A stretch of DNA of 64,000 bases, from IMG/VR virus record IMGVR_UViG_3300037189_024986, positions 18,248-82,247 of that record; one strand, 5' to 3'. How positions within the stretch are numbered: position 1 is the stretch's first letter; each line of letters starts with the position of its first letter. Below, piece after piece: positions 2,728 through 54,249 of this stretch. The notes under the pieces are model-generated. The model made no database searches and was not told where the DNA came from. It saw only the letters and a program-made list of their open reading frames with translations. This DNA is from a virus. The translations under genes and the position numbers were made by a program.

Positions 2728-2737
2728 TAATTAATAT

Positions 2738-32530: not shown

Positions 32531-32920
32531 TTATTTATATAAATTTAAAAAGTCTTTTAGGGATTTGGGTTGTTTTTTAAAAACAGTGTCTTCTCCTATT
32601 TTATTTTGAGACAGCATTATTTCCTGATGTTTAGGAGAAAAATCGGAAATAGATTTTTTATAATTAAAAAACTGCTCTTGCAAATATTGCTGCCCATAAT
32701 CCGCAATAAAATAAGCAAGAGATGGTACTTTTTTATTATACGGAGGAATAACCCAAAGAAGAAAATCTGGATTATACTTTGCGCAAAGAGTATTTGCAAT
32801 CTTCATTTCCCTTGGCCAGAAATACTTTTCAGAGAAACTGGCTGGATCAATGAATTTAGAAATAATTTTATGCTGAATCTTCGGCTCTTTTTTAAGAGGT
32901 TTTTCTTGAATTAATTTCAT
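32531..32920 (-). CDS. hypothetical protein, 129 aa
   Basis: A basic protein of unknown function. The N-terminus is Lys rich; the middle carries FWPREMKIANTLCAKYNPDFLL and a helix with YFIADYGQQYLQEQFF. No known domain is recognised. It lies between gmd, which it overlaps by 29 bases, and the RecA-like gene, which starts five bases after its stop. A helper in recombination or replication is possible by position only. Confidence 0.5.
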   Translation of the reverse strand: MKLIQEKPLKKEPKIQHKIISKFIDPASFSEKYFWPREMKIANTLCAKYNPDFLLWVIPPYNKKVPSLAYFIADYGQQYLQEQFFNYKKSISDFSPKHQEIMLSQNKIGEDTVFKKQPKSLKDFLNLYK

Positions 32921-33965
32921 TTACATCTGATAGTACCATACGTTCTACCAGTTTGTCAAATGAAATTTTCGGGGTCCAGCCGAGTTCAGTTCTTGCAAGC
33001 GTTGAATCCCCCAAAAGAATATCAACTTCCGCAGGGCGATAAAATTTTGGATTAATTTTGACCAAAACAGAGCCTTTGACATTCAAATCTTCCGCCAATT
33101 TATTTGTGATTGAATATTCTTCGCTCAAACCCTTTCCGTGCCATGCTCCATCAATTCCAGCAACTTTAAATGCTTTTTCAATAAATTCTCTAATGGAATG
33201 CGTTTCGTTAGAAGAGAGAATATATTCCTTTGGCTTTTCTTGATTCATCATTAGCCATACGCCTTCAATAAAGTCTTGTGCATGAGACCAATCGCGTTTT
33301 GCATCAATATTTCCAAGTTCAAGCGGGGCGAATTCTTGATTATTTTCTATTGCGTTTTTAATTCTTGCTACATTGGTCGTGATTTTTCTTGTAACAAACT
33401 CAATGCCGCGTCTTTCGCTTTCATGATTGTATAAAATACAATGAACAGCATATAAATTATAAGAATCTCTATAAACTTTGGTTAAATGTCTTGCCGCAGC
33501 TTTTGCTGCTCCATACGGGCTTCTTGGACGAATTGGATGGTTGAGGTCTTGAGGGGTATAAATTACATCCCCCATCTCTTCAGAGCTTCCTGCGCTGTAA
33601 AAACGACAATGTGGTGCAAATTTTCGGATAGCTTCAAGGCATCGAAGCACTCCCATTGCTCCCGCATCAAAAGTCTGCTCTGGGATTTGCCAACTGATAC
33701 CTACAAAAGATTGAGAAGCGAAATTAATAAAATAATCTGGATTAACTTCTCTAACAACGTTTTCTATTGATTGAGAATCACACAAATCTCCTGTGACCAA
33801 TTGGAATCGGGGATTTTTTAATGCATTTTCAATATTTGAATAGTCTGGTTTAGCAGATCTTCTAACCATCCCATAAATTTGATGATTAGTATGTTCAAGC
33901 AGATAGTCTACCATATAAGACCCATCTTGACCAGTCACGCCCGAAACTATAATTTTCTTATTCAT
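32892..33965 (-). CDS. gmd: GDP-mannose 4,6-dehydratase
   Basis: A 357-residue short-chain dehydrogenase/reductase of the extended type. It makes GDP-4-keto-6-deoxy-mannose from GDP-mannose, the first step to GDP-fucose, GDP-colitose and related sugars. The NAD(P) motif is GVTGQDGSY (9-17), MVRR follows as the cofactor-specificity loop, AGSSEEMG supplies the catalytic Ser and Glu, and YGAAK supplies Tyr and Lys. The NHESERRG stretch is typical of GDP-mannose dehydratases. Length and motifs are full. It begins the glycan island next to replication genes, with ATGA overlap to the next SDR gene. Confidence 0.93.
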   Translation of the reverse strand: MNKKIIVSGVTGQDGSYMVDYLLEHTNHQIYGMVRRSAKPDYSNIENALKNPRFQLVTGDLCDSQSIENVVREVNPDYFINFASQSFVGISWQIPEQTFDAGAMGVLRCLEAIRKFAPHCRFYSAGSSEEMGDVIYTPQDLNHPIRPRSPYGAAKAAARHLTKVYRDSYNLYAVHCILYNHESERRGIEFVTRKITTNVARIKNAIENNQEFAPLELGNIDAKRDWSHAQDFIEGVWLMMNQEKPKEYILSSNETHSIREFIEKAFKVAGIDGAWHGKGLSEEYSITNKLAEDLNVKGSVLVKINPKFYRPAEVDILLGDSTLARTELGWTPKISFDKLVERMVLSDVNEINSRKTS

Positions 33966-34768
33966 AGTTCATTATAAATCTGCTTGATACCATTTGTCAA
34001 GTTTATTTTGGGATTCCAAAGATTTAAAATATATTTATCTGGTTCATTTTTCTTATTCATTTGGATATCGTATGAATCTCCAATAGAAATTGAGGCACCA
34101 GACATAGAAGAAATTATTTTGGCTATGTCAATAATCTTTGTCCATTCAAAGTTTGTAATGTGAAGATTTTCATTTCTGGAAATTTCTTGATATTTATTCA
34201 TTAAAATCTCAAGACATTCAGAACAGTCATCTGCGTGCAAAAATTGCCTCTCTTCTTCTCCAGAAGTTTTTATGGCAATGTGGCCTTTGCTTTTTGCTGC
34301 TTTGATAAAATCAGTGATTACATGAAACTTCTTTTCGTCTGTTTCTAGCCCATAAACATTCCAAAATTTAACAAGCAATCCGCCAAGATTTTGAGTGTAC
34401 TTCTCTCCTATAGACTTCAATAATCCATAATTTGAATAACTCATATTTGCCATTTGACTTGAAGCAAACAAAAATGGGGTTTTGTATTTTTCTAAAGACT
34501 CAAACGTATAAAGCATAAGCTTCATATTGTTATCCATAAATTCTTTGGTATCTTGATACTTCTTCAAATATGTTGAGCCTCCCACATCAAACGCTAAAAA
34601 GAATACAAAATCTATTGATGGCAAAATAGTATTTAAAATGTCTTTTTGTCGCAAGTCTTGTTCTGGATTTTTTTCTATATCAAATTCCTTAACATTATGA
34701 TTTTTGCTGAGATGGTTTTTTAATGCTGCGCCAATTTGACCTTGAGAACCTAGTATTAAAATGTTCAT
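33962..34768 (-). CDS. NAD-dependent epimerase/reductase-like SDR protein
   Basis: A 268-residue extended SDR. NILILGSQGQIGAAL is the nucleotide-binding motif. ASSQMANMSYSNYGLLKSIGEKY contains the Ser and YxxxK active-site elements. The start at 34768 is supported by ATGA overlap with the stop of the fucosyltransferase-like gene; a longer frame from 34786 is possible. It may complete the pathway started by Gmd, for instance as an epimerase-reductase, but the sequence is not clearly GDP-fucose synthase. Overlaps gmd by four bases. Confidence 0.75.
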   Translation of the reverse strand: MNILILGSQGQIGAALKNHLSKNHNVKEFDIEKNPEQDLRQKDILNTILPSIDFVFFLAFDVGGSTYLKKYQDTKEFMDNNMKLMLYTFESLEKYKTPFLFASSQMANMSYSNYGLLKSIGEKYTQNLGGLLVKFWNVYGLETDEKKFHVITDFIKAAKSKGHIAIKTSGEEERQFLHADDCSECLEILMNKYQEISRNENLHITNFEWTKIIDIAKIISSMSGASISIGDSYDIQMNKKNEPDKYILNLWNPKINLTNGIKQIYNEL

Positions 34769-35595
34769 ATATGTTTTAAAAAGCAATTTTCATATAACCA
34801 TTTGTCTGGTGAAGCAAATTTCTGAAATTTATTAAAATTTTCTTCAATTACTTGCTTTTTGTTATTATAGTCTTCTACGCTAATTTTTGCCAGTATCTGT
34901 TTCAGGTCTTCTATTGTTTCCCAAGTATAAAATCCATCTTTATTAAAATGATTTGACATATTTGGGTCTCCCCAATAAATAGGAATACATCCCGAAGCAA
35001 AACAATCAATAATTTTATCTGTAAAATAATTGGGAAATCTACAGTTTTCCGCAACTATCATATACATATAGTCTTTAAATGGCGCCACTCTTCCATCTGG
35101 CTCATCGCTAAACCATTTATAACCACTTCCCCAAAGTTCAAGTTCGGGGTGCAAATTCATGGATATCAATTTGTGGCGAAGCTGATGTCCTGGAGCATAA
35201 TTTTTATTTGATGCAACAATTGATAATAATTTGTTCTTGGGATAGATTTTGCAATTTTGCTTTGGTATCCAACAAGCCCCACCGCAATAAGCTTGTTTAT
35301 ATTTTGGATTATTTGGGATTGGAGCGTAAGTATAAATATAATCAAATTTATGTTCTATTTGATGAATATGATTGATTACATACGGTTTTATTATTGGACT
35401 TTCTGCTGCTAGTGCAATTTTGTATTTTGATTTAACTTTGTCTACAATTGGGTCAAAACACATTTCATCTGTAAATAAAGATATGCCGTCAAATTCCATT
35501 AGCGGGGGCTTGATATATTCTACCAAAGGCTCTGGCCAATGCATGTTAATATAAGGTCCATCTCCAGTATTCTTGTCAAAAAAATTAATTTTCAT
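34765..35595 (-). CDS. GT10-type (fucosyltransferase-like) glycosyltransferase
   Basis: A 276-residue enzyme. Its C-terminal lobe has the GT10 pattern: AENCRFPNYFTDKI (from 182), then CFASGCIPIYWGDPNM and a GFYTWETIEDL helix. In alpha-1,3/4-fucosyltransferases the same region (FENS..DYVTEK, then G-x-PVV-x-G) binds GDP-fucose. The N-lobe is short. Being beside gmd and an SDR gene, it would use a GDP-deoxysugar made by them. The acceptor is unknown and could be a virion glycan, host lipopolysaccharide or DNA. Confidence 0.8.
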   Translation of the reverse strand: MKINFFDKNTGDGPYINMHWPEPLVEYIKPPLMEFDGISLFTDEMCFDPIVDKVKSKYKIALAAESPIIKPYVINHIHQIEHKFDYIYTYAPIPNNPKYKQAYCGGACWIPKQNCKIYPKNKLLSIVASNKNYAPGHQLRHKLISMNLHPELELWGSGYKWFSDEPDGRVAPFKDYMYMIVAENCRFPNYFTDKIIDCFASGCIPIYWGDPNMSNHFNKDGFYTWETIEDLKQILAKISVEDYNNKKQVIEENFNKFQKFASPDKWLYENCFLKHI

Positions 35596-36290
35596 ATATT
35601 TTTTTTGTGTTCGTCTATCTTTTTCTCCAATTCTGCTTCTGTATAGTCTTGAAAATGCTGAAAACCTCGTGGGGACATTTGGCGACCCAGATAATTAATT
35701 ATTGCTTCTGGATTATTTGAAATATCATGGATATGAGAATATACGCATTCGTTTGCTTTGGCCGTTATATATCCTTTTGTTGCGGCTCTGTATGCAAGCT
35801 CTCTTTCGCAGCCAAGTGGGGAAGCAATTTCATCATAAACATAATCTCCGCAATCTTTTATCATTTTAGATTTTAAACCCAAAACAAATCCCTGCGGTAT
35901 TGATACTATGTCGTTTGGTTTTCCTCCCATTCCCACGCATGAAATTCCTATATTATCTGGGATAAGTGTCTCAACTAAAGACTTATATGTCGCTGGATGA
36001 ACTGCACAATCATCACTCAACATTATTAAATATTTTGACCAAGAAATTTTGTATGCTAGATTTATAGCTTTTGCAAATCCCATATTTTGACTGGAAAAAA
36101 TAAATCTTGTTATTCTTGGCTCATTTTTTGCATATTCTAATATTTTCCAACTTTCTTCTGAGTAAAAATTTATAATTAAAATAAATTCATCAGGTGGGAA
36201 TCCGCTATATGCTTCCTCGACTCTTTTTTTGATATTATCTAAAGATTTATAGCCTATCGTTAATATTGCATAATTATTTTTATTATCCAT
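35592..36290 (-). CDS. GT2-family glycosyltransferase
   Basis: A 232-residue GT-A fold enzyme. YAILTIGYKSLDNI starts the first strand, SSQNMGFAKAINLAYKISWSKYLIMLSDDCAV gives the GxxxAxN and DD metal motif, and FVLGLKSKMIKDCGDYVYDE and CERELAYRAATKG are the later acceptor-side elements. The start at 36290 is chosen because AAGGA stands eight bases before it; the longer frame to 36308 has none. It overlaps the GT8-like gene by eight bases and the next gene by ATGA. Confidence 0.8.
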   Translation of the reverse strand: MDNKNNYAILTIGYKSLDNIKKRVEEAYSGFPPDEFILIINFYSEESWKILEYAKNEPRITRFIFSSQNMGFAKAINLAYKISWSKYLIMLSDDCAVHPATYKSLVETLIPDNIGISCVGMGGKPNDIVSIPQGFVLGLKSKMIKDCGDYVYDEIASPLGCERELAYRAATKGYITAKANECVYSHIHDISNNPEAIINYLGRQMSPRGFQHFQDYTEAELEKKIDEHKKNI

Positions 36291-36975
36291 AGAGTTCCTT
36301 ATAGTCATTTTCTATTGTTTGGAATTTATTTCCATTTCCATACTTGCATGGACCGGCATAATGAATAAAATTGGAGTTATATCTATTATTCTGTTCGTCA
36401 AATTCTCCCAAATCCATTCTGTTGAAGCTATGAGATAAAGATTTAAATGGAATTTTGTTCTTGGCTACAGCAAAATTTAAAGCAGTTTGCTCTCCTCCGT
36501 CAATGCTAAAGCATTTTTGTGTAAATTGAATTTTTGAAATCAAAGAAAATAGATTAACGTGAGGCTTTGAATATAAAACGCACCCAGAATTAAAATACAT
36601 TTTTCTGTTATCTATCAACGGCCATTCAAAATCTGGACTATAAGTATCAATCCAGGAGTCCCTTTTCATATGTTCTGCATCGCCGTTTTCATTGAATGCG
36701 TATAAATAATTTTCGTCTGGATATTCTTCAAATATATTTTTTGCAGAAGGGGTAACTAATACGTCTGCATCTAAACATAATACTCTATCATATTCTTCCA
36801 AGAGTTCCAAACATTGAAATTTTTCAAAATAGTGATTTATAAAATTATATTTTTGCCCATTGCACAAAAAGAAAGACAATTGATATTTTTCTGCGTATTT
36901 TGCTATAGAATTTAAACAAAATTTATATCTGGAAGGATCTCCAAGAGCCAAGCTGAATATTGCTAATTTTTTCAT
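36283..36975 (-). CDS. GT8-like glycosyltransferase
   Basis: A 230-residue GT-A enzyme. LLEEYDRVLCLDADVLV gives the DxD metal site (D69-D71), MYFNSGCVLYSKP the FNSGV-type element, and FSIDGGEQTALNFAVAK the DQ-type helix; IHYAGPCK near the end matches the H-x-G-x-x-K motif. The full set is typical of GT8 and related enzymes that transfer galactose, glucose or GlcNAc. It overlaps the upstream GT9-like gene by 53 bases, which is unusual but fits the packed island. Confidence 0.78.
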   Translation of the reverse strand: MKKLAIFSLALGDPSRYKFCLNSIAKYAEKYQLSFFLCNGQKYNFINHYFEKFQCLELLEEYDRVLCLDADVLVTPSAKNIFEEYPDENYLYAFNENGDAEHMKRDSWIDTYSPDFEWPLIDNRKMYFNSGCVLYSKPHVNLFSLISKIQFTQKCFSIDGGEQTALNFAVAKNKIPFKSLSHSFNRMDLGEFDEQNNRYNSNFIHYAGPCKYGNGNKFQTIENDYKELYG

Positions 36976-37963
36976 TATTTATAACTTCTTTTATTATATA
37001 TTCTGCGAGTAATTTCGGAGATAAATTCTCGCATTCTCTTTTGCATGATTGAGATAAATTTTCTCCACCAAAAGCTTCTAAAAAATATGATGGACATTTC
37101 TTTCTGCATTCTAAATGCAAATGACTTGGAAAAAATGAATTTCCAAGTTTAAAAAATTCTACTTTATTAATTAAACACGCTTGAAACAAAACAATGGGCT
37201 TATTTCTTATATTAAATGCATGATGTACTCCGCCATCACTCATTATTCCATAATCCATAAAATCTACATTCCTTATTAAATTAAAAATGTCTCCTGTGTC
37301 TGGGCAATGCTCGTCTCCAATTCCAAAATTTTCTTGAGAAAACTCAAATATTTTTATTCTAGGATTGGAATATTTTAATGTTTTTACTAGCTCTTTCCAT
37401 GATTCTAGCCCTTTCATACCATTAAATCTAAACCCTTTTCCATCGCAATGGGGGTGAGGCGTTGTTTTGCCTGAAAGTTTTGTGGTGGGAACAATTCCTA
37501 TGTTAATAAAATTAGTATTATTTTCGTATTTTGGCACATTTATTTCTGATAAAAAGCTTTGTTTTTTATCAAAAAGTAGGTTTTCTAGCCCTAATTGAAG
37601 TAGGTAATTCAATGTGATTATATTTGCTGTTGGATGGTTTTCTAAAAGTTCAGCATTATCTTTCCAGAATGTAAACGTCTTTGGGTGCCAATCTGGATAA
37701 ATTACCTTTATATTTTCTATTTTCTCATCCGAAAGGGCGTATTGATGATAATTAACGTATATTTCTTGCTGATTTGGTTCTCTAACCAAGTCTACGTTTT
37801 TATCCAATTTAAATATATCTATAAGAAATCCATAAGTGATTACTTCTAGGGTGCAATCTGGATATACTGATTTTAAAATCTTGGGAACAAAAGTAAAAAT
37901 TAAACTATCCCCAAGGTTTTTTGGAAATATCCATCTTGGAAAATATAATCGAATATTTTTCAT
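36923..37963 (-). CDS. GT9-like (heptosyltransferase family) glycosyltransferase
   Basis: A 346-residue GT-B enzyme. The start WIFPKNLGDSLIFTFVPKILKS resembles the GT9 N-lobe motif GxGDxxxxxP. FSQENFGIGDEH, then FNLIRNVDFMDYGIMSDGGVHHAFNIRNKPIVLF, matches the C-lobe motif with the GG-x-H-x-A signature. The start at 37963 fits the ATGA overlap with the previous gene; 24 more codons could be read upstream. C-terminal Cys (CRKKCPS, CKREC) may form a metal site. Unlike the island member at 9.8-11 kb it is unbroken. Confidence 0.75.
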   Translation of the reverse strand: MKNIRLYFPRWIFPKNLGDSLIFTFVPKILKSVYPDCTLEVITYGFLIDIFKLDKNVDLVREPNQQEIYVNYHQYALSDEKIENIKVIYPDWHPKTFTFWKDNAELLENHPTANIITLNYLLQLGLENLLFDKKQSFLSEINVPKYENNTNFINIGIVPTTKLSGKTTPHPHCDGKGFRFNGMKGLESWKELVKTLKYSNPRIKIFEFSQENFGIGDEHCPDTGDIFNLIRNVDFMDYGIMSDGGVHHAFNIRNKPIVLFQACLINKVEFFKLGNSFFPSHLHLECRKKCPSYFLEAFGGENLSQSCKRECENLSPKLLAEYIIKEVINNEKISNIQLGSWRSFQI

Positions 37964-38778
37964 TCTATTAACTCTTTTATTCCATTTTTTATATCTATTT
38001 TTTGCACAAAACCCATCTTTTTTATCTTTTCGCAATCTAAAACCATATCTTTTGTCTGTACTATTTTATGGAAATTTGACGCTTCTATAGGAGTAATTTT
38101 ACTCGTAGACCCTGTTTCTTTTATTATAAAGTCAATAATTTCTCTAAAGTTTTGTGGAATTCCGCTCCCTATATTTATTATCTGATTGTGGTCTGAATTA
38201 TTAATACATAAATTGATTGCATTGCATACATCAGAGACATGCATATAATCTCTTACAAATTGGCCATCATTATATAATTCTATATCTTCTTTATTTTTTA
38301 TTTTTTTGACAAGATACTGTAACGCATTTTTTTGTTTAGATATTCCTTTGTCATTCTTACCGTAAACATTACATAGTCGAAGTATTCTATATTTTATATT
38401 AAACGTTGCGCAATAGCTTATAATTAAATCTTCTGCGCATTTTTTTGTTATACTATAAAAACCTTTTGGATTACAGCAAAAATCTTCCTTCGCTGGTAAA
38501 TCAACATTTCCATAAACAAACCAGCTGCTTATAAAATTAAAAGTAATATCTTTGTCTTTGCAGTGACTTAATACTTTTAATAATTTAATTAAATTTGTAT
38601 TTACATCTTTGTAGATATCATCGAATACATGATAATTATGAGTGGTGCTAATCATGTATAGCACATCTTTAAATAAGGGAATATCGCCTGCCCTGTTGTG
38701 TATATGGGTAGACTCAGGGTACAGATTATAATAATTGCTACCTATAAATCCTGTGCCGCCAAACAAGTCAACTTTCAT
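37960..38778 (-). CDS. NAD-dependent epimerase/dehydratase-like SDR protein
   Basis: A 272-residue extended SDR. DLFGGTGFIGSNYY is the NAD motif, FISSWFVYG contains the catalytic Ser and the usual YG, and FYSITKKCAEDL supplies YxxxK. RDYMHVSDVCNAI and NIGSG are the conserved sugar-nucleotide epimerase elements. It overlaps the E1-like dehydrase by 11 bases and the next gene by ATGA. It may reduce or epimerise the 4-keto group made by the dehydratase and dehydrase. Confidence 0.8.
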   Translation of the reverse strand: MKVDLFGGTGFIGSNYYNLYPESTHIHNRAGDIPLFKDVLYMISTTHNYHVFDDIYKDVNTNLIKLLKVLSHCKDKDITFNFISSWFVYGNVDLPAKEDFCCNPKGFYSITKKCAEDLIISYCATFNIKYRILRLCNVYGKNDKGISKQKNALQYLVKKIKNKEDIELYNDGQFVRDYMHVSDVCNAINLCINNSDHNQIINIGSGIPQNFREIIDFIIKETGSTSKITPIEASNFHKIVQTKDMVLDCEKIKKMGFVQKIDIKNGIKELIE

Positions 38779-40069
38779 ATTTCGACAAAACTTCTTGAAT
38801 ATATTCTATATTTTCTTTTGATATTGTTGGGGAGCATCCGACAAAGAATACTAAATCCAGAACTTTATTCGATTCTGGATATTTTTTATAATCATCAAGG
38901 TGTTTATAGCCTTTATGCATTAGGAGATTGCCTGCAAAATAATTACGGGTCTGTATACCATTTTTCTCTAAATAATTAACTAGATTGAGCTTTTGAGTCT
39001 TATTGTTGCAAATGATAGGTACTCCAAATGGAACCCAATCTGTATCACTCAAGCATTTTGGAAATCTTATGTCTTTGACGTTGTCTTTGAACACTTTCCA
39101 TATTTCTAATAAATTATCTGCTCTTTTTTCGCAAATAAAGTCAAGCTTCTTTAACTGTTCTATTCCTATTGCCCCTTGCAAGTCTAAAGGTTTTAGATTG
39201 TATCCAATTCTATTGAATACATATTTATGGTCAATTATTGTGTCTGGAAAGTCACTTAGCCAGTTTGAAAATCTCTTTCCACAAGAGCCATTGGCTAAAA
39301 GATTACATGTTCCTACGCACCAGCAATCTCTTCCCCAAGTTCCATAGCTTCTGGCTAATTGAACAATTTGCTCTATGTCAGAAGATACCATTCCGCCTTC
39401 TAAAGTGGTTATTTCATGCGCTGGATAGAAAGAACATGATGAAGCTATAGCATATTCATTTAAATATTTGCCTTTCCATTTTGACCCAAGAGAATCGCAA
39501 TTATCTAGCAAAAGAGTGATGTCTCCCATTTCGCATATATTTAATAAAACATCCATGTCTGGTGGATTACCCAATACAGGACTTAAAAATATTGCTTTTG
39601 TATTTTTGGTAATTTTGTTTTTTAATTTGTCAAGATCAAAGTTTAAAGTATCCCATTCAATATCTATAAATACTGGTTTCAGTCCATTTTGAACTATTGA
39701 AGATACTGTCGTTGGGAATCCCACCGCAGAAACAATAATTTCATCTCCGTCTTGCCATTTAAAATATTCTTTGCAAGCGGCAATTAAAAGTAAATTTGCT
39801 GAACTCCCGCTATTGGTAAAAAATGAGAACTTTTGATTTGTCTTTTTTCCAAATTCTTTTTCAAATTGGGCGCATGTTTCTCCAGAGCTTGACCATTTTC
39901 CAAATAACAAAGCTTCGATTGCTGCCGCCATTTCATTCTCATCAAAAAATGCTCCTGAATAATAAACTTTATTCTTTGGAGCATTCAGATTATGGCAAAA
40001 CTTTGGAAGATTTCCATGTTCTTCCTGTAGTTTTAATATGAAATTTTTTATGACTTCTCTTTTATCCAT
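38768..40069 (-). CDS. rfbH: NDP-4-keto-6-deoxyhexose 3-dehydrase (E1/RfbH type)
   Basis: A 433-residue enzyme of the DegT/DnrJ/EryC1 aminotransferase fold. SFYPAHEIT has His218 where PLP aminotransferases have the Schiff-base Lys, as in the E1 dehydrase of 3,6-dideoxyhexose synthesis. The [2Fe-2S] cysteines are present in order: C191, C249, C251, C263. C191 to C249 to C251 keeps the E1 spacing of 57 and 1; the last interval is 11 instead of 7. CGKRF follows the last Cys as in E1. The enzyme removes the 3-hydroxyl of a nucleotide 4-keto-6-deoxysugar, usually a CDP-sugar. The partner reductase is not seen nearby. Confidence 0.85.
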   Translation of the reverse strand: MDKREVIKNFILKLQEEHGNLPKFCHNLNAPKNKVYYSGAFFDENEMAAAIEALLFGKWSSSGETCAQFEKEFGKKTNQKFSFFTNSGSSANLLLIAACKEYFKWQDGDEIIVSAVGFPTTVSSIVQNGLKPVFIDIEWDTLNFDLDKLKNKITKNTKAIFLSPVLGNPPDMDVLLNICEMGDITLLLDNCDSLGSKWKGKYLNEYAIASSCSFYPAHEITTLEGGMVSSDIEQIVQLARSYGTWGRDCWCVGTCNLLANGSCGKRFSNWLSDFPDTIIDHKYVFNRIGYNLKPLDLQGAIGIEQLKKLDFICEKRADNLLEIWKVFKDNVKDIRFPKCLSDTDWVPFGVPIICNNKTQKLNLVNYLEKNGIQTRNYFAGNLLMHKGYKHLDDYKKYPESNKVLDLVFFVGCSPTISKENIEYIQEVLSKYES

Positions 40070-40083
40070 AATTTATTATTGTT

Positions 40084-40809
40084 TTATCTATTAAATCCAA
40101 TTTTATCGTGATTAACAAGGAATTTTAGATATATTTTTTCTGCCCCTTTGTTTATTTTCTCTGAATATTCTGGACTTCTGTTCTCATAATCATAAGTATA
40201 ATTAACCAAAAGCTTTGGAATATTATAAAATTGATAATGTTTCACTGCTCTGCTAAATAAATCATAATCTTCGCTAACACAAGAATCGTCATATCCCCCG
40301 CATTTAGTCAATATTCTTTTGTTAAAAATTAAAGATGGGTGAGCCATTGGGTTGTTTCCAATATGATAACTGTGAAGAATTTGTTCGTGTGTTTCTGGAT
40401 AAAAAACTTCTTTGACCCCATCTTTTGTATGAAAGAACATGCCTGTTCCGCAAACATCAATTTTATTTTCAATGACGAATGGCAGTTGAATTTCTATCTT
40501 ATTTAATAGCCATTCATCATCACAGTCAAGAATTGAAAAATAATCACAATCAGTGATTTTCATTGCTGTAAAAAGACTAGTATTTCTTCCTGCCACTAAT
40601 CCTTTTTCTGGGCTTTTTGCATAAATTATATTTTCATACTCCGATACAACTTCTAAAAGGTTGTCTGTCGAGGCGAGATCATTTACTATAACTATTTTAT
40701 AATCAAACATACCCTTTTTAAAGGCTGTTTGATTAACTATAGAATCAAGAGCTTTTTTTATTATTCCTGCTCCGTTTTTCACCGTCATTAAGATTGCAAT
40801 TGTTTCCAT
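40084..40809 (-). CDS. GT2-family glycosyltransferase
   Basis: A 241-residue enzyme of standard GT2 form. METIAILMTVKNGAGIIKKALDSI starts the fold, YKIVIVNDLASTDNLLEVV gives the first Asp, GLVAGRNTSLFTAMKITDCDYFSILDCDDEWL is the donor-binding helix and DxDD metal motif, and NPMAHPSLIF with CGGYDDSCVSEDYDLFSR is the catalytic ED element. All catalytic positions look intact. It sits 15 bases after the E1-like dehydrase gene begins and is probably cotranscribed. The sugar and acceptor are not predictable. Confidence 0.85.
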   Translation of the reverse strand: METIAILMTVKNGAGIIKKALDSIVNQTAFKKGMFDYKIVIVNDLASTDNLLEVVSEYENIIYAKSPEKGLVAGRNTSLFTAMKITDCDYFSILDCDDEWLLNKIEIQLPFVIENKIDVCGTGMFFHTKDGVKEVFYPETHEQILHSYHIGNNPMAHPSLIFNKRILTKCGGYDDSCVSEDYDLFSRAVKHYQFYNIPKLLVNYTYDYENRSPEYSEKINKGAEKIYLKFLVNHDKIGFNR

Positions 40810-40812
40810 TTT

Positions 40813-41421
40813 TTATAATAGTTCGTCTAATTTAAAGTCTTTTCTTTTAAAAATCGCGCAAAACACTCCTTCGCTATCGTAAATGTTATGAAGATTTAAA
40901 TAACAAAAAAAGTCAAAATTGTTCTTGGAAAAAGTCTTTACCCACGTTTTTTTACATTTCCTATTTATGTGCGTTGGATCTTTTTCTGAGATTTCCAATA
41001 CAAATTTTGCGTTATCTTCAAGCGGGACAGGTATTCTTACGAGAACAAAATTAGATTTTAAATTGGTTAAAATTTCATCGACTTCCTTCTCTGGAATATG
41101 CTCTAAAACATCTAAAAAGAAAACAAGATTTTGCTGAGGTATATTTTTTGGGTCAAAAACAGTAAAACCCTTTGATTCTGTGACTGACCTTGCCCAATTT
41201 GATATTTCTACTCCATGGATTTTATTATAACCAATCTGTTTAAATCCCTGCATTAAAAAACCGACGGCACAACCATAATCAAGAATTGGTTGATTTTTAA
41301 AATCAAGACCCATGCTATCAAAAAAAGAATCTATTTCTCTTGCAAGCTTGGCATATCTTTGGCCTCTAGAAAGATAATTTTTATAATTATTTGTCTCGTA
41401 GTATTCTTTTTCAAAGTTCAT
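40813..41421 (-). CDS. class I SAM-dependent methyltransferase
   Basis: A 202-residue protein with a Rossmann methyltransferase core. ILDYGCAVGFLMQGF is motif I, KIHGVEISNWARSV motif II and FFLDVLEHIPEKEVDEIL the later DxLEH segment common in methyltransferases acting on sugars and small molecules. It overlaps the radical SAM gene stop by four bases and ends close to a GT2 gene. A role in methylating a glycan or its precursor is likely but inferred from the neighbourhood. Confidence 0.8.
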   Translation of the reverse strand: MNFEKEYYETNNYKNYLSRGQRYAKLAREIDSFFDSMGLDFKNQPILDYGCAVGFLMQGFKQIGYNKIHGVEISNWARSVTESKGFTVFDPKNIPQQNLVFFLDVLEHIPEKEVDEILTNLKSNFVLVRIPVPLEDNAKFVLEISEKDPTHINRKCKKTWVKTFSKNNFDFFCYLNLHNIYDSEGVFCAIFKRKDFKLDELL

Positions 41422-42524
41422 GGGAAGTTTTTGTCTGGCATATCATTACATACGGTATGCAATAGTTTATTATTAAATTTATAATAGCAGTATTTACAAG
41501 TACTTTCCCAATTTTCGCCATTATTATTTTTTATTTCGTATGGGAAACCTTTTTCTTTAAAGTTTTCGTTTATTTTATTCCATGTGACAATAATGTCTTC
41601 AACCTTGCATAAAGAATAGTCTAAATCATAATTTCTTTTATTCAAAACATGACTTGTGCATGTATAGACATGGTATTCATTTTTGCCATGTGGGTCTGGG
41701 GCAACATAGGGGCGAATCATTCCTACATAGCATCCATCATTAAATGGAGAGTCATCATATCCAATGTCTTTGATAAAGATTTTATTAAATTTGTCTACTT
41801 CATCAATCGTTTCTTGAAATTCCTGTCTTACACTTGCGTTGTTTCCTTTTATTAAGCAATTTCCTGCTATTCTAACGAATTTAATTTCTGGATTCAATTC
41901 AAGGACTTTTGCAATTCTTCTAATTGTCTCTGCGTTCGTGGGCGTATATTTCTTTCCAATTCTTGTTCCTGTTCCAGATTCTTCATCATAAATAATGTAA
42001 GAAAGACCCATTTTATTGGCTGGAAAAGAACAAAAGTCATAGTCTTCTGGATTAAATCCTTCGTCTAGCTTAATTAAACTTATTCTTATCCAAGAAATTT
42101 TATCAAAGTTTTCTTTTTTAATTTTGTTTAGTTTTAGGGTATTAGTAATTATTCCAATAAAATAACCAAGTTCATTTGCATATTCTATGATTGAATTAAT
42201 ATCATCACCTGTGTCTTTGTCTCTATAAATCAAAGGCTCTCCTCCGCCGGTTATTTCTACGCTTTTTGCACCCAGCAACTTGAAATCTCTTAGAGTTTGC
42301 TTTATTTTTTCAAATGGCATATAGCTCTTAAGTGGTCTTTCTGCAACCGAGCAAAATGGGCAACCGCTTGAGCAAGCCTCAATTGGCGCGAGTTGAATAG
42401 TTATAGGTTTAAAAGTTCTATCTTTTTGAATTGAATGCAGAACGTCTGTATGTTGAAGAAGCTTATCTCCCCAAGTGCTGTATTTTTGGGTAAGGTCTTG
42501 ATGTTTTTTTGTTTTGTTTTCCAT
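41418..42524 (-). CDS. radical SAM enzyme with C-terminal cysteine cluster
   Basis: A 368-residue radical SAM protein. CSSGCPFC (C51, C55, C58) is the CxxxCxxC cluster motif, and SVEITGGGEPLIY is the GGEP SAM-binding element. In the C-terminal third, Cys in CYVG, CTSH, CKVED and CKYCYYK suggest SPASM-like auxiliary Fe-S clusters. Such enzymes modify peptides or sugars; the substrate is unknown. The stop overlaps the methyltransferase start in ATGA, so the two may act on the same substrate. Confidence 0.82.
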   Translation of the reverse strand: MENKTKKHQDLTQKYSTWGDKLLQHTDVLHSIQKDRTFKPITIQLAPIEACSSGCPFCSVAERPLKSYMPFEKIKQTLRDFKLLGAKSVEITGGGEPLIYRDKDTGDDINSIIEYANELGYFIGIITNTLKLNKIKKENFDKISWIRISLIKLDEGFNPEDYDFCSFPANKMGLSYIIYDEESGTGTRIGKKYTPTNAETIRRIAKVLELNPEIKFVRIAGNCLIKGNNASVRQEFQETIDEVDKFNKIFIKDIGYDDSPFNDGCYVGMIRPYVAPDPHGKNEYHVYTCTSHVLNKRNYDLDYSLCKVEDIIVTWNKINENFKEKGFPYEIKNNNGENWESTCKYCYYKFNNKLLHTVCNDMPDKNFP

Positions 42525-42527
42525 ATT

Positions 42528-43322
42528 CTATTTTATTAGATAAGCAAATTTATCTCTATTTTTCATTACATAACTCGGTAGGCCAATTGAATCGTCTTTA
42601 ACGATATGAAATCCATTTCTATCATAAGGGTCTCTCAATGAGTCTCTTCTTTCTTTTATTTTCTCGACAGACAGGTATTCTGGAGAATGATACTCGCTAT
42701 GAGAGCTTGCGAGCATTTTATAAGCAATTTGATTTTCATCTCCTAAATGAGAAAAATGCCAGCCAGAATTGTAAATTCTATTAAGATGGTCTTTTGATTG
42801 CCTTACGTCATTAAAGTTTTTATTTTTTAAATTTTTATATCTATCGCAAACAACAGAAGGAAACCAATAATGATTATCTGGAGACAATATCGGAGTATTC
42901 ATATACCAGAAAAATCCTCTTAGAGTTAAAACGCATGGGAAAGTTTTAAGTTCTGATACGGATTTTGCCGTAGGAATTTCATCTAAATCAGAAAACATAA
43001 TGATATCTTCGTCATCGCAATGAGCCAAGGCATTTTTTACCGCATCTCTTTGAAGAAACATTAATGAATGCCTATGTTCGTCACCTTTGTTATAAAATTC
43101 TGAAGAAGGGTTCTGCAAACCTTTCTCAAGTTTTAAATAAATAATCTTATCTTTGTATTTTTGATATATTTCTGAATTTTCAAGATAGAATGGCTTTTTT
43201 ACATTAGAAACAGTAATATCTGATTCGCAAATAACAAATTTATCAACTACATCTTTTAGTTCTTCAATTCTTATTTCTAAAATGTGGGTTTCGTTTAAAA
43301 AGTTAAAACAATCGTAAATCAT
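42528..43322 (-). CDS. GT17-type glycosyltransferase
   Basis: A 264-residue enzyme. YDCFNFLNETHILEIRIEEL at the N-terminus, VDKFVICESDITVSN and the acidic SDLDEIP (111-117) follow the GT17 order; this family includes beta-1,4-mannosyl-glycoprotein GlcNAc transferases and bacterial relatives. LRGFFWYMNT and GWHFSHLGD are the later conserved blocks. It is packed between radical SAM and GT4 genes with spacings of four to five bases, so one operon is likely. Confidence 0.8.
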   Translation of the reverse strand: MIYDCFNFLNETHILEIRIEELKDVVDKFVICESDITVSNVKKPFYLENSEIYQKYKDKIIYLKLEKGLQNPSSEFYNKGDEHRHSLMFLQRDAVKNALAHCDDEDIIMFSDLDEIPTAKSVSELKTFPCVLTLRGFFWYMNTPILSPDNHYWFPSVVCDRYKNLKNKNFNDVRQSKDHLNRIYNSGWHFSHLGDENQIAYKMLASSHSEYHSPEYLSVEKIKERRDSLRDPYDRNGFHIVKDDSIGLPSYVMKNRDKFAYLIK

Positions 43323-43326
43323 ATTT

Positions 43327-44169
43327 TTATTCAGTTATGATGTTCCAAAAATCAAATGATGCAGTATTGCATTTATTTAAAAACTCTTTCATTCCGAGTC
43401 TTTTCATTTCATGGATACATCCTATCTTATCATTAATCATCATTTCCATTCCTGATAAAGCTGCCTCTCCTGCGGCTCTACAAAAGGGTTCATCTATTCT
43501 AGGGAAATATATAAAAGTTTTATATTTATTATATAGTTCGGGCATCTTTTCGTGAGATACTTTTCCAAGGAATTCTATATTTGGAATGCTTGTGGCTAAA
43601 TGTTCAAAAATCTTTTCTCCCCATCCAGCGACGACAAATTGTATTTGCGGATTATCTATAGCGTATCTAAAAAAGTCAAAAGTGCCTTTGAATTCGTGCA
43701 TGAATCCAACGTAAAGGACTTTATCTTCCCTATTATTCTTATTATCAAAAAAGATAGATGAATCTATTGGGTCTGGAACTATTCTAACGTTAATAAAATA
43801 ATCTCCGTAATGATTTTTAAATAAATTATAATGATATTCAGTTAGGAAGAATGCATTTTTGCAGCTTGTGTAAAGCTGATGTCTTTTAGACTGAGAAAGA
43901 TATCTATTCATATCATGCTCGACTCTTGAATGAGCTTTTGCAGAAGATAAATAATCAATTATAAATGGATATTTCTGGTTTAAAAATTCAAGATTTGCAG
44001 AAATCACATGGTCGTAAGAGTTTTTAAGCAATTCTGGGTCTGAATCACAAGTAAAATGAGTTATATTTAAACCCATCTGCCTTCCCTTTTTAATAATAAT
44101 ATCATCGCTTCTTTGAGCGCCTCCAGGACTATGCAAGATTGAAAAATCAGAAACCCAAAGAATGTTCAT
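43327..44169 (-). CDS. GT4-type glycosyltransferase, compact
   Basis: A 280-residue GT-B enzyme, shorter than the usual 350-400. NILWVSDFSILHSPGGAQRS begins the N-lobe; VLYVGFMHEFKGTFDFF and GWGEKIFEHLATSIPNIEFLGKVSHEKMPELYNKYKTFIYFPRIDEPFCRAAGEAALSG form the C-lobe with the EPFCRxxxEA donor motif. The protein ends soon after this, so the last helix is reduced. Its place in the island suggests surface glycan assembly. Confidence 0.8.
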   Translation of the reverse strand: MNILWVSDFSILHSPGGAQRSDDIIIKKGRQMGLNITHFTCDSDPELLKNSYDHVISANLEFLNQKYPFIIDYLSSAKAHSRVEHDMNRYLSQSKRHQLYTSCKNAFFLTEYHYNLFKNHYGDYFINVRIVPDPIDSSIFFDNKNNREDKVLYVGFMHEFKGTFDFFRYAIDNPQIQFVVAGWGEKIFEHLATSIPNIEFLGKVSHEKMPELYNKYKTFIYFPRIDEPFCRAAGEAALSGMEMMINDKIGCIHEMKRLGMKEFLNKCNTASFDFWNIITE

Positions 44170-44179
44170 ATTTTATATA

Positions 44180-45025
44180 TTATCTATTCCACGAAATAGC
44201 GTGGTTTTTAATTAGACCATCATTCTTGTCTATATATTCAAAAATAAATTCTATTTGTGGTATATTGGTACTCTTTGCTTCCCTGAGTTTTCCAAAAAGA
44301 TCTTTTAATGATACTGTTTTGGGTATATTTATTTCTGCGAGTTGCTGTTTTAAGGCAGAGTATCCTGTAACTTTCTTAATATAAATATGTGACTTAGATT
44401 GTTTTAATAATTTAAATATTTGAGTAAAAAATATATCATTCTGACTCTTTGTATAAGAAGTTAGATTTCCAAATCTAACAGATTTAAATGCCACTGCGCC
44501 ATCAAAATAATCTAATCCAAAATTAAAAACATCATCGCATTCAAATTTTATTCCATCTTCATCTAAGAAATACCCATAAAAAGTAAAAATTTCTTCATTA
44601 GCTTTTATATCTTTTGAGGCAGTAAATATAAATGTTTTATCTTTTATTTTCCACTCAGCATTGTTTCCGCTGTTTGAAGTATTGTAGATTGGTCCAAATC
44701 CCAATGGTAAAACTGTATAAACTACTTCTTCTCCATCTGGATGATATTTTGGCATCCATTTAAAATAATAATCTTCCGCATCTTTAAAACCAAGATTCTT
44801 TCGAAGATTTTCTATGAATTTTTCTTTTGGATGAAGAAGGTTTTGAGATTTTAATGTATCAATAATTGGCTTTAAAGATAATACTTGCTGTGGGAGAACA
44901 ATAAATGGCGACTCTTCTAGCGTCTCTCCATTTTGAATATCCTCTTTTGCAAATACCCCAAATCCTTCTATTGGAGAATTTCTTACTTCTATTTTAGATG
45001 AGAAAATCAGTTTGTTTTTTTGCAT
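44180..45025 (-). CDS. SET-domain protein
   Basis: A 281-residue protein. The SET fold is visible as NSPIEGFGVFAKEDIQNGETLEESPFIVL near the N-terminus, then LPLGFGPIYNTSNSGNNAEW, FIFTASKDIKANEEIFTFYGY. The last matches the SET NHSxxPN and GEELxxxYG elements, though the NHS motif is altered to NTSNS. SET proteins methylate lysines, so the phage may methylate a protein of its own or of the host. It overlaps the next upstream gene by 32 bases. Its location inside the glycan island is unusual. Confidence 0.75.
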   Translation of the reverse strand: MQKNKLIFSSKIEVRNSPIEGFGVFAKEDIQNGETLEESPFIVLPQQVLSLKPIIDTLKSQNLLHPKEKFIENLRKNLGFKDAEDYYFKWMPKYHPDGEEVVYTVLPLGFGPIYNTSNSGNNAEWKIKDKTFIFTASKDIKANEEIFTFYGYFLDEDGIKFECDDVFNFGLDYFDGAVAFKSVRFGNLTSYTKSQNDIFFTQIFKLLKQSKSHIYIKKVTGYSALKQQLAEINIPKTVSLKDLFGKLREAKSTNIPQIEFIFEYIDKNDGLIKNHAISWNR

Positions 45026-45353
45026 GAGGATGTTTCTTTCCAGTTCTCTGTTCGTATTTCAATTCTGCATTTCTACGCATTTCATCTTGACCAGAGTTGC
45101 CTCCTCTTTTTTCAGAAAGCTCTGCGCTTTTATCCCACAATTGTCCTAAAGAATAATTTTTTTGCCTAGTCTTTCTTACAAAGTCATTTGGGTCGGTTAA
45201 ACTTAACTGTGTATCTATTGAAGCCTGTGGTTTACAAAATTCTCTTTGCCATTTTACACCTTTTTCGTCTATATAAATATGTTCATCGCTCATAGCTTGA
45301 ACGACTTCTATGATTTTTCCATTTTCTGGATGAGAGAATGTATAAATAGGCAT
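44994..45353 (-). CDS. conserved phage-type protein, FmdB-like N-terminus
   Basis: A 119-residue protein. It begins MPIYTFSHPENGKIIEVVQ, followed by HIYIDEKGVKWQREF, a pattern like FmdB-type regulatory proteins but without their zinc Cys. The C-terminal half is basic with short helices. Similar small proteins occur in T4-like phages of water bacteria; no function is known to me. It precedes and overlaps the SET gene. Confidence 0.55.
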   Translation of the reverse strand: MPIYTFSHPENGKIIEVVQAMSDEHIYIDEKGVKWQREFCKPQASIDTQLSLTDPNDFVRKTRQKNYSLGQLWDKSAELSEKRGGNSGQDEMRRNAELKYEQRTGKKHPHAKKQTDFLI

Positions 45354-45356
45354 ATC

Positions 45357-46052
45357 TTAAATAGTTATATCAAAATTATCTGAAATTGGTACGCGAGACG
45401 CAATGAATAAAGCCCTTGATTTTTCCTTTATTGGAATAGAAAAACAATTTACAAAACCTTTTATACCCATAGCTTTTTTAAAGTCAATAAATTCTTCTTC
45501 ATTACACGAGACTTCTCCACAAATAGATTTAACATTCTTTTCTATTAGCTTAGAATTTGTAAGGATTTCTCTTTCGGCATATCCTATATTTAATTTCATT
45601 ATATCAATTTCTTCTCCATAGCAGTATTCTGTTAAAATAGTATCTAAGTTATGGCATTGACATGGATAATAATTTTCCTGTTCTTCTTTAATTAAACCAA
45701 TGGAAGACAAGTCGAAATAGATATTATCAACAAATTCTGGAGTAGAAAATCTACCAATTATTGACTCTGTATATATTCCCAGTTGAAAGGGAGTAACTCT
45801 CCCAACAAAATCTAATTTATAACAATTTTGAAGCAATGACTTAAAATTATCTAAAAATGGCTCGATTGCATATACTTTTCTTGCTCCAAGCGTGAGGGCA
45901 GTAAATGAGAAAAAACCAGCGTGCGCGCCAATATCCAAGAATACTTTTGAATTGTCTTTGTTTGCTTTTAATTTGTAATAATTATTAAAAAAGACATTGT
46001 CAAAAATACCTTGGTCATTGGTAAAGCTTCTGGTTATAATTTCTGGGGTCAT
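45357..46052 (-). CDS. FkbM-family methyltransferase
   Basis: A 231-residue protein. KVFLDIGAHAGFFSFTALTLGARKVYAIEPFLDNFKSLLQNC is the SAM-binding region of FkbM-type enzymes, which usually O-methylate sugars or polyketides. IDIMKLNIGYAEREIL corresponds to the family's D-x-x-K-x-D-x-E block. It stands between GT4 and the FmdB-like gene and probably decorates the glycan built by the island. Confidence 0.85.
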   Translation of the reverse strand: MTPEIITRSFTNDQGIFDNVFFNNYYKLKANKDNSKVFLDIGAHAGFFSFTALTLGARKVYAIEPFLDNFKSLLQNCYKLDFVGRVTPFQLGIYTESIIGRFSTPEFVDNIYFDLSSIGLIKEEQENYYPCQCHNLDTILTEYCYGEEIDIMKLNIGYAEREILTNSKLIEKNVKSICGEVSCNEEEFIDFKKAMGIKGFVNCFSIPIKEKSRALFIASRVPISDNFDITI

Positions 46053-47593: not shown

Positions 47594-48223
47594 TTAAACT
47601 AAATCGCAAATATTGTTTGAATCTTTCATTTTGTTTTTAATTAAAATTAAACCTTTTTTATGCAAGCACATGACTGTTTGTGGCGATGCTTTTACTTTTC
47701 TTGCAATTTTATTCCAAATCATCTTTTTTCCTGCAAAATATCTATATTCGAATATATCTTTGATTCTTGGGTCTTTCATTTGGCCTAGTATATCGAATAT
47801 ATAATCTTTGCTTTCTTCCAAAGAGTTTTGTGATTCAAAATAATTATTAAAAATTTGCTGCTCTTCTATTTTTTTCTGAACATCTTCGTCGCAAGAAGGC
47901 ATGATAAATCTTCTTGAATTTATCGAATTAAGGCAAAGATATCTTGCGTAATTACCTATCCACGAAGATAATTTTGTTTTCTTTTTTGGATTAAAAGTCT
48001 TAATACAATGAAAGATAATCATATCTTTTTCATTAAAAATATCCTGTAAGTGGAATCCGCAATTACTTATTGAAGAAGAATATTTTTGACACATTTTATA
48101 AAAAACGTTCTCATATCTTCTACAAACCTCTAAAAAACATTCGCTACAGGCTTTATTTTTAACTTGCCTAATCAAATAAAGGTCAGATTTGTTTTCTAAT
48201 GAATTGTTCAACAGTTTTGACAT
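47594..48223 (-). CDS. phage RNA polymerase sigma factor
   Basis: A 209-residue protein with sigma-70 region 2: a helix with YSSSISNCGFHLQDIFNEKDMIIFHCI, then FNPKKKTKLSSWIGNYARYLCLNSI, the segment that melts and reads the -10 box. The C-terminal half has MIWNKIARKVKASPQTVMCLHKKGLILI, a helix-turn-helix like sigma region 4. Size and pattern resemble late sigma factors of T4-like phages. It overlaps the dNMP kinase gene by 41 bases. It could read the recurring STRTAAK motif described in the findings. Confidence 0.8.
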   Translation of the reverse strand: MSKLLNNSLENKSDLYLIRQVKNKACSECFLEVCRRYENVFYKMCQKYSSSISNCGFHLQDIFNEKDMIIFHCIKTFNPKKKTKLSSWIGNYARYLCLNSINSRRFIMPSCDEDVQKKIEEQQIFNNYFESQNSLEESKDYIFDILGQMKDPRIKDIFEYRYFAGKKMIWNKIARKVKASPQTVMCLHKKGLILIKNKMKDSNNICDLV

Positions 48224-48928: not shown

Positions 48929-48983
48929 AAAATAGAAAAAATACCCCCAAAATAATAATATTTTTATTATTACTTGGGAGTAT
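48929..48983 (-). terminator. terminator of the minus-strand structured RNA
   Basis: ATACCCCCAA (48941-48950) pairs with TTGGGAGTAT (48974-48983) with one mismatch, and the A/T-rich inside (AATAATAATA against TATTATTA) lengthens the stem to about 20 bp. On the minus strand it is followed by TTTTTTCTATTTTT, so it should end transcription from the promoter at 49.3 kb. Confidence 0.7.
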
Positions 48984-49308
48984 CCTGAAATAATTTCTTC
49001 GAAGGGCATTATTATTTAATCGTCCTAGCCAACGGACAGAAATTCAGAAGTGATTTTCACACTAGACAGCTACCATATAGGTGATGAGAGAGATTCTAAA
49101 ACTCATTTACGCTGCCAATACCTCGTTTCCGAAATGTCGGGTAAACTCCACAATTTACTTGCAGACTCTTTTTTTATCCCATCTGATAATGGGGGCCTTT
49201 CTCCTTTGGGCATGGTATTAAAGACAGTTTACCAATCTACTTTGCTTCGATTGCCGCAGGAAAACCTCACGATTGTCGTATGGCTTAAAAGATTCACTCT
49301 TTTTGTAT
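48935..49308 (-). ncRNA. candidate structured non-coding RNA, about 375 nt
   Basis: A minus-strand transcript is bounded by a consensus promoter (49315-49344) and a strong terminator. No good reading frame or ribosome site lies on that strand; a 99-codon plus-strand frame opposes it and looks spurious. The RNA has an 8-bp helix GGUAAACU (49233-49226)/AGUUUACC (49147-49140) and a 6-bp helix AAUACC (49219-49214)/GGUAUU (49122-49117) whose order is a, b, a', b', that is a pseudoknot. Local hairpins include CCGA-CAUU-UCGG, AUGAG/CUCAU and GUCC/GGAC. It does not show the signature motifs I know for RNase P, tmRNA, 6S, SRP, cobalamin riboswitches or group I/II introns. Confidence 0.6.
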
Positions 49309-49314
49309 TTACTT

Positions 49315-49344
49315 ATACTAAGCATTTATTTACAAAAATGTCAA
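49315..49344 (-). promoter_or_regulatory. consensus promoter of the structured RNA
   Basis: TTGACA (49344-49339) and TAGTAT (49320-49315) are 18 bases apart on the minus strand. No start codon follows with a useful frame, so it most likely drives the structured RNA. Confidence 0.65.
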
Positions 49345-52394: not shown

Positions 52395-52769
52395 GGGGAC
52401 GTACTGGTTTCGATTTGCGAAAAACGACCTTAATTGCACACAGAGGATGATGGTTGGCCTCTTAAAATATCTATCAAAAACTCAACTGCTAACGCATTGA
52501 AATCGCTCGCTTTTGTGCCTGTTGTGGGCAGAGAAGTGGCTGCCGTAGCCTAATTGTTGGCTACCCGTTTGTCTCTTGATTCTCGCTATAGAGAACAAAC
52601 GATATTGGCGAGAAAAAACGCAGGGGCTAATGTGCGTAATCAGGAGCTAAAAACTCAAAAGGAATGGAAAGTCAGTTCCAGTCTTTTGTTTTATCAAGTC
52701 TGACTAAGTGTGTAGAAATTTTGGGAGTTCGTTGCAAAGACGCGGGTTCAACTCCCGCCGTCTCCACCA
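52395..52769 (+). ncRNA. ssrA: tmRNA
   Basis: A 375-nt tmRNA with encoded CCA. GGGGACG at the 5' end pairs with CGTCTCC before the discriminator A, forming a tRNA-like acceptor, and GCGGGTTCAACTCCCGC is a canonical T-arm. The resume codon appears to be GCT at 52488; the tag then runs 21 codons to TAA at 52551, beginning ANALKSLA and ending REVAAVA. It rescues stalled ribosomes and adds the tag for proteolysis. The tag is long and hydrophobic with an AVA end rather than the frequent LAA. Phage-borne tmRNAs are uncommon. Confidence 0.93.
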
Positions 52770-52816
52770 ATTTATTTATTTGAATAATTTCTCGTATAAC
52801 CTTGTCTAATATAGAG

Positions 52817-53733: not shown

Positions 53734-54249
53734 ATGACAAATCAAGAATTTTCAGAAAAAATAGAGTCTTCAATTCAAAAAGGAAAAGCTTTTTTACATA
53801 CTAAATTTAAACTATCATCACACGACGCAGAAGATTGCGTGCAGAATTCAGCCGTAAAAGCTTATAAAAATCTTTCTTCTTTTAATGCAAAATCCCAATT
53901 TGATACATGGTTTCTAACGATAGTTAGAAATGAAGCGTTAAATTTCCTTTCCAAGAAGAGTTTGCAATGCGTTGAGTTGCAAGAAGCCCTGTCAGTCAAA
54001 GCAATAGAAGAAGAGTCAAATAAAGACTACATCTCCTTGGTGGAGCAGGGGCTTACCCATCTTAATGAGAAAAATAAAACAATCATTGAAATGTCTTTAA
54101 AAGATTGTTATTCGACAAAAGAAATGTCGGAGATTTTAAATATCCCAATGTCCTCAGTAAGGACCCGTCTTTTTTACGCAAAAAAGAAATTAAAAAGTAT
54201 AATAAAGAGAAATGCATACAAATCAAACATACAACTCCCTAATCATTGA
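53734..54249 (+). CDS. ECF-like RNA polymerase sigma factor
   Basis: A 171-residue protein with ECF sigma regions. Region 2 reads HDAEDCVQNSAVKAYKNL and QFDTWFLTIVRNEALNFLS, the -10 reading helices; region 4 reads NKTIIEMSLKDCYSTKEMSEILNIPMSSVRTRLFYAKKKL, a helix-turn-helix for the -35 box. It overlaps by 38 bases a downstream protein with a possible membrane helix. Two sigma-like proteins in one phage window suggest staged transcription. Confidence 0.82.
   Translation: MTNQEFSEKIESSIQKGKAFLHTKFKLSSHDAEDCVQNSAVKAYKNLSSFNAKSQFDTWFLTIVRNEALNFLSKKSLQCVELQEALSVKAIEEESNKDYISLVEQGLTHLNEKNKTIIEMSLKDCYSTKEMSEILNIPMSSVRTRLFYAKKKLKSIIKRNAYKSNIQLPNH

Follow-up and report, generated by a model that had tools for sequence, protein, structure and literature searches.

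The RNA described here lies on the minus strand of a 64,000-nucleotide stretch of viral DNA, called the window below, which was taken from an 82,247-bp IMG/VR virus record; the record holds one copy of it. A sequence-only reading of the window had claimed that an orphan structured RNA, provided with a promoter and a terminator of its own, is encoded here. The claimed promoter, TTGACA (49344-49339)-N18-TAGTAT (49320-49315), which is sigma-70-like, was found on the minus strand by scanning, and transcription is predicted to start near 49308. Folding also recovered the claimed strong terminator as a long hairpin followed by a U run (48986-48938), a hairpin that a simple terminator scan did not flag. 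From the positions of the promoter and the terminator and from the homologues, an RNA of ~370 nt (48938-49308, minus strand) is predicted. One sequence alone proves little, as the single-sequence scan found 11 promoter-like matches against 12.8 expected in shuffles, which is not above chance, and the fold of this single sequence surpassed those of shuffles only slightly (z -2.1). The case therefore rests on the relatives of the RNA.

Homologues and distribution of the RNA

The same RNA is present, at the corresponding genomic position, in four related viral contigs, L006, L004, L002 and L014 (L006 is the same contig as L020 and L023, and L004 is nearly the same as L003). Searches with NrdJ, the dNMP kinase, a 117-aa protein, a 171-aa protein and a sigma-like protein all led to these four phages. 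In all five sequences nrdJ, p171 and mem117 follow each other in this order on one strand, and the other strand carries the RNA, a variable gene and the sigma-like, ssb and glycosyltransferase genes. The earlier placement of the RNA between the dNMP kinase and nrdJ genes holds for the window and for the relative closest to it, but in three of the five the kinase does not adjoin the RNA. A phage tmRNA gene with the tag ANALKSLAFVPVVGREVAAVA is present just after nrdJ (window 52395-52769, plus strand), and also in the four RNA-carrying relatives.

The -35 box TTGAC[A/T] is invariant in 5/5 homologues, and the -10 box reads TAGTAT, TAGTAT, TATTAT and TATAAT in four of them and is weak in L004. 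It is this conservation, not the single-sequence match, that makes the promoter credible. Both promoter and terminator are retained despite sequence divergence; in the terminator of the relatives the hairpin has been kept and its sequence has diverged.

A covariance model of the 3′ core gave one RNA match in each of the five sequences and none in the remaining records with NrdJ, one of which is 96 kb long and has a 76% identical NrdJ. NrdJ relatives without the neighbouring genes were also without the RNA. DNA searches with the window, L006 and L002 versions found no copy in isolated phages. Four isolated phages gave chance-level scores only, and plasmids yielded a single 31-base chance match. 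A pattern scan of 85,000 prokaryote genomes returned 0 matches. In IMG/VR, the strict core pattern added a single new contig, L027, in which the match proved to be a chance one inside a coding region, and the relaxed pattern hit 115 stretches; none of the 78 new loci among these that were examined by the covariance model contained the RNA. A search of prokaryote genomes with NrdJ found no relative, so these give no hint of the host. With the data searched so far, the RNA class is narrow and belongs to one lineage of uncultured phages.

Secondary structure and pseudoknot

RNAalifold was run on a plain MAFFT alignment of the 3′ core of the five sequences and, unaided, proposed 39 pairs, 15 of them with compensatory changes. 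In the plain-core alignment A6, the 31 pairs were 95.4% paired, and both sides had changed with pairing kept in 14 of them, compared with 6.0 ± 1.7 in shuffles (0/500). When the partner was slid by 1-3 columns in the same alignment, pairing fell from 95% to 33-50%; this control leans in favour of the structure because the sequences used were also those from which the structure had been derived, and for these alignments the shuffle control and the compensatory-change count are the stronger support. As two of the five members are close, the covariation rests on about four independent sequences. A search for stems common to the five sequences added P1, P10, P11 and the long-range helix PK. The counts of pairs changed on both sides that are given below for P1, P2, P10, P11 and PK are from a hand-registered alignment; P3, P4, P6 and P9 covary in A6 as well.

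Starting from the 5′ end of the minus-strand RNA, hairpin P1 (AAAGA/UCUUU, 49302-49288) is found in 5/5 sequences with one both-side change, and hairpin P2 (AGCC...GGUU with the inner stem ACGA/UCGU, 49285-49263) has the same architecture in 5/5 alleles, including that of L006, with covariation in the inner stem. Hairpin P3 (CCCAU/AUGGG, 49193-49178) is 100% paired, with both-side changes in 3/5 pairs, and a conserved A-rich linker (49175-49166) precedes hairpin P4 (UCUGCAA/UUGUGGA, 49165-49147), which covaries in two pairs. P6 (GGCAGC/GCUGUC, 49116-49065), again 100% paired and changed on both sides in 4/6 pairs, closes a three-way junction with P7 (AUGAG/CUCAU, 49106-49084; one pair changed) and P8 (ACC/GGU, 49082-49072). 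Hairpin P9 (AGUG/CACU, 49063-49049) has both-side changes in 3-4 of its 4 pairs, with four in the hand-registered alignment. P10 (GUCC/GGAC, 49037-49022; 2/4 pairs changed) is stacked directly on P11, which pairs AAUUUCU (49044-49038) with AGAAAUU (48998-48992) and shows both-side changes in 6/7 pairs, with a per-sequence shuffle control. PK pairs GGUAUU (49122-49117) with AAUGCC (49010-49005) in 4/5 sequences and, in a shifted register, GAGGG with CCCUC in L002, from which its four both-side changes come.

As P10 and the 3′ strand of PK both lie within P11, PK and P11 form a pseudoknot, and this arrangement is supported by the comparison of the homologues. The pseudoknot of the sequence-only reading, an 8-bp helix interlocked with a 6-bp helix, for which no helix coordinates had been given, most likely involved the wrong pair of helices. 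Its best candidates, e.g., 49149-49142/49046-49039 crossing 49072-49067/49031-49026, are incompatible with P4 and P11 and not conserved in L002 and L014. The wider claim, that the RNA is a structured orphan equipped with a promoter and a terminator, is supported by the homologues and the covariation.

RNAalifold also suggested that CCGAC (49140-49136) pairs with the P10 loop, a pairing that was not retained because of its poor fit in L002 and L014. The P10 loop core UGGCU (49033-49026), invariant in 5/5 sequences, is complementary to the invariant AGCC of P2 (49285-49282). On this complementarity, AGCC could switch between P2 and the P10 loop; AGCC is already explained by P2.

Exchange of the 5′ domain

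By its alignment, the RNA is composed of a constant 3′ domain (P3-P11) and a 5′ domain (49308-49195, minus strand) that contains P1, P2 and a variable insert and is replaced wholesale. Between the window and L006, the 5′ domain from the start site to P3 is identical in 50% of the alignment columns, compared with 47% after shuffling, whereas its flanks are 87-97% identical; the 3′ domain is about 96-97% identical, above the neighbour genes at 87-89%. Between the window and L004 the order is reversed, the 5′ domains being 80% alike and the neighbouring genes only 63-68%. Sliding identity agrees that the 5′ domain was replaced between close relatives and is common to a more distant one. A third version is common to L002 and L014 and includes an 18-nt motif, conserved between the two, that was found nowhere else in IMG/VR. 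P2 can be recognised even in L006, whose 5′ domain is otherwise unrelated. The identities among the window, L006 and L004 thus indicate that the 5′ domain was exchanged as a unit, while the promoter, the P1/P2 architecture and the 3′ domain stayed. Near-identical phages that differ in the 5′ domain amount to a natural domain-swap experiment.

Relation to the downstream operon

The gene downstream of the RNA is the dNMP kinase gene in the window and L006, an IMPDH/GMP-reductase-like gene in L002, the sigma-like gene directly in L004 and another ORF in L014. In L002, the IMPDH/GMP-reductase-like gene (2592-3566, minus strand) is inserted between the RNA and the dNMP kinase. Outside the RNA, 8 nt before the dNMP kinase ATG, lies a motif, TTGAAC-N20-TCTAAG (48809-48779, minus strand), that may be a separate promoter for the downstream operon, and in 4/5 (window, L006, L004 and L014) TTGAA-N19-20-TCTAA precedes the downstream start codon by a few bases. 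The window has 5 occurrences of this motif against 1.8 expected, and 5 were reached in 6/100 shuffles. A separate promoter for the downstream operon appears likely and, together with the terminator, favours a free-standing RNA. Since the promoter of the RNA is kept while the downstream operon varies and has its own apparent promoter, the RNA is better explained as a separate gene than as a leader. We consider it very probable that it is an independent structured non-coding RNA, and infer the independent transcript from the terminator, the promoter and the conservation only.

The motif TTGAA-N19-20-TCTAA[T/G] is found upstream of genes at 48809-48779 (minus), 13541-13512 (minus) and 52780-52810 (plus) in the window, and also in L004, L006 and L014. 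In places it lies only 4-8 nt before the start codon, which may point to leaderless mRNAs. Two sigma-70-like proteins encoded in the window (47594-48223, minus, and 53734-54249, plus) possibly read it.

Comparison with known RNA families

Few large structured RNAs are known from phages. At the gathering score no family of Rfam 15 matched the RNA, and at E ≤ 10 three homologues gave chance-level matches only. The ORF lists of the homologues revealed no conserved peptide on either strand, in agreement with the earlier claim that there is no convincing reading frame, and no description of the RNA was found in the open-access literature. tmRNA (RF00023) is likewise a structured phage RNA of similar length; however, the RNA had no tmRNA match, and only its neighbour 3 kb away on the other strand is a tmRNA.

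The closest analogue in design, though not in sequence, is GOLLD, which has a conserved 3′ region and a less conserved 5′ region (PMC12286853). Like GOLLD, the RNA is phage-encoded and pseudoknotted and combines a conserved 3′ region with a variable 5′ region. It differs in length, as GOLLD is often >800 nt whereas the RNA predicted from the promoter and terminator here is ~370 nt, and in setting, since GOLLD occurs near tRNA islands and no tRNA array stands beside the RNA; the GOLLD covariance model had no match in it at the gathering score or at E ≤ 10. ROOL is similarly a pseudoknotted phage or prophage RNA without a known protein partner (PMC12286853). Its covariance model did not match the RNA either, the RNA is not near tRNA islands, and the 5′/3′ split is described for GOLLD, not for ROOL (PMC12286853).

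The sequence-only reading had recognised none of the known large RNAs here and suggested a new class in the style of the ornate phage RNAs. The Rfam search agrees with the former, the homologues and the covariation make the latter probable, and the likeness in style is fair in view of the GOLLD-like division into domains, although the RNA is less than half the size of GOLLD. As no Rfam 15 family matched and the plan shared with GOLLD extends to neither sequence, size nor setting, the RNA probably represents a new family of the broad kind of large structured phage RNAs, with the documented domain exchange as its special feature.

Discussion

The locus probably holds a free-standing ~370-nt non-coding phage RNA gene of a new class, with a conserved 3′ domain and an exchangeable 5′ domain. 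The RNA would be transcribed from its own sigma-70-type promoter, which suggests that it is probably made by the unmodified host RNA polymerase, and would end at its own terminator. The pseudoknotted 3′ domain (P3-P11) may serve as a rigid scaffold, most likely for the binding of a constant partner, i.e., a host or phage protein or a ribonucleoprotein. The 5′ domain, in which P1 and P2 are kept and the body is exchanged between phages, would most likely recognise something that differs between hosts or competitors. This division of labour between a scaffold and a recognition module is drawn from the conservation pattern alone and is offered tentatively, at somewhat less than even confidence; the exchange of the 5′ part may also be selectively neutral.

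Phages change targets by swapping the tips of their tail fibres. By analogy, and with more reserve than the division of labour itself, the RNA could be pictured as a two-domain machine in which interchangeable 5′ specificity domains are mounted on a fixed pseudoknotted 3′ scaffold, so that a one-module swap would retarget an RNA effector. If the 5′ domain does set specificity, a comparison of hosts between phages that differ in this allele would point to the target. Its small size puts the RNA within reach of rapid structural and genetic studies, and its secondary structure is backed by covariation.

Four alternatives were ranked, from an anti-defence decoy through an RNA-only particle and a leader down to a guide RNA for a missing enzyme. 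As a decoy for anti-defence or host takeover, the RNA would mimic or sequester a host RNA-binding component, and its 5′ variants would follow the defence alleles of the hosts. Both the strong host-type promoter and the swapping of the 5′ domain among close relatives would be expected from an arms race, but the searches showed no likeness to any known RNA family, and we regard the decoy as rather unlikely. It would be a special case of the scaffold with an exchangeable recognition module.

The RNA could also assemble into an RNA-only particle, a homo-oligomer as in GOLLD and ROOL, built up through the 3′ domain as its assembly unit, the variable 5′ part lying either within it or on its exterior. 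The conserved 3′ and variable 5′ regions and the phage origin recall GOLLD (PMC12286853), but the smaller size, the lack of a GOLLD model match and the lack of an adjacent tRNA array make such a particle improbable.

A cis-acting leader, i.e., an attenuator or riboswitch controlling the downstream minus-strand operon (dNMP kinase, sigma-like gene and ssb), would be compatible with the shared strand, with the ~168 nt between the terminator and the next start codon, and with the nucleotide-metabolism genes that follow in the window (dNMP kinase) and L002 (GMP reductase/IMPDH-like). However, the RNA is not kept upstream of one gene or pathway, the downstream ORF has its own promoter-like motif in 4/5, the shared-stem search among the five sequences found no conserved antiterminator or alternative terminator pairing, and ~370 nt with a wholesale-swapped 5′ part fit a sensor poorly. 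A leader is thus very unlikely. That the RNA guides or templates a phage-borne enzyme (retron, DGR or TnpB/IscB-like), a role to which a structured RNA with a variable segment might lend itself, is hardly credible, as the whole 82-kb record, which may be incomplete, has no match to RVT_1 or to the Cas12f/TnpB zinc ribbon, and the RNA is not repeated elsewhere in the window except for terminator-like A/T-rich pieces.

Other features of these phages are mentioned briefly. NrdJ contains in-frame inserts that start with Cys at two different sites in L006 (5289-6212) and L014 (about 5985-6947), which we read as inteins; the NrdJ of the window has no insert, and those of L013 and L011/L012 have further insertions. 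The window also carries a long minus-strand block (32892-46052) of sugar-nucleotide, glycosyltransferase and radical-SAM genes together with a gene for a SET-domain protein. One member of this block has a weak match to viperin models and is perhaps just a radical-SAM protein.
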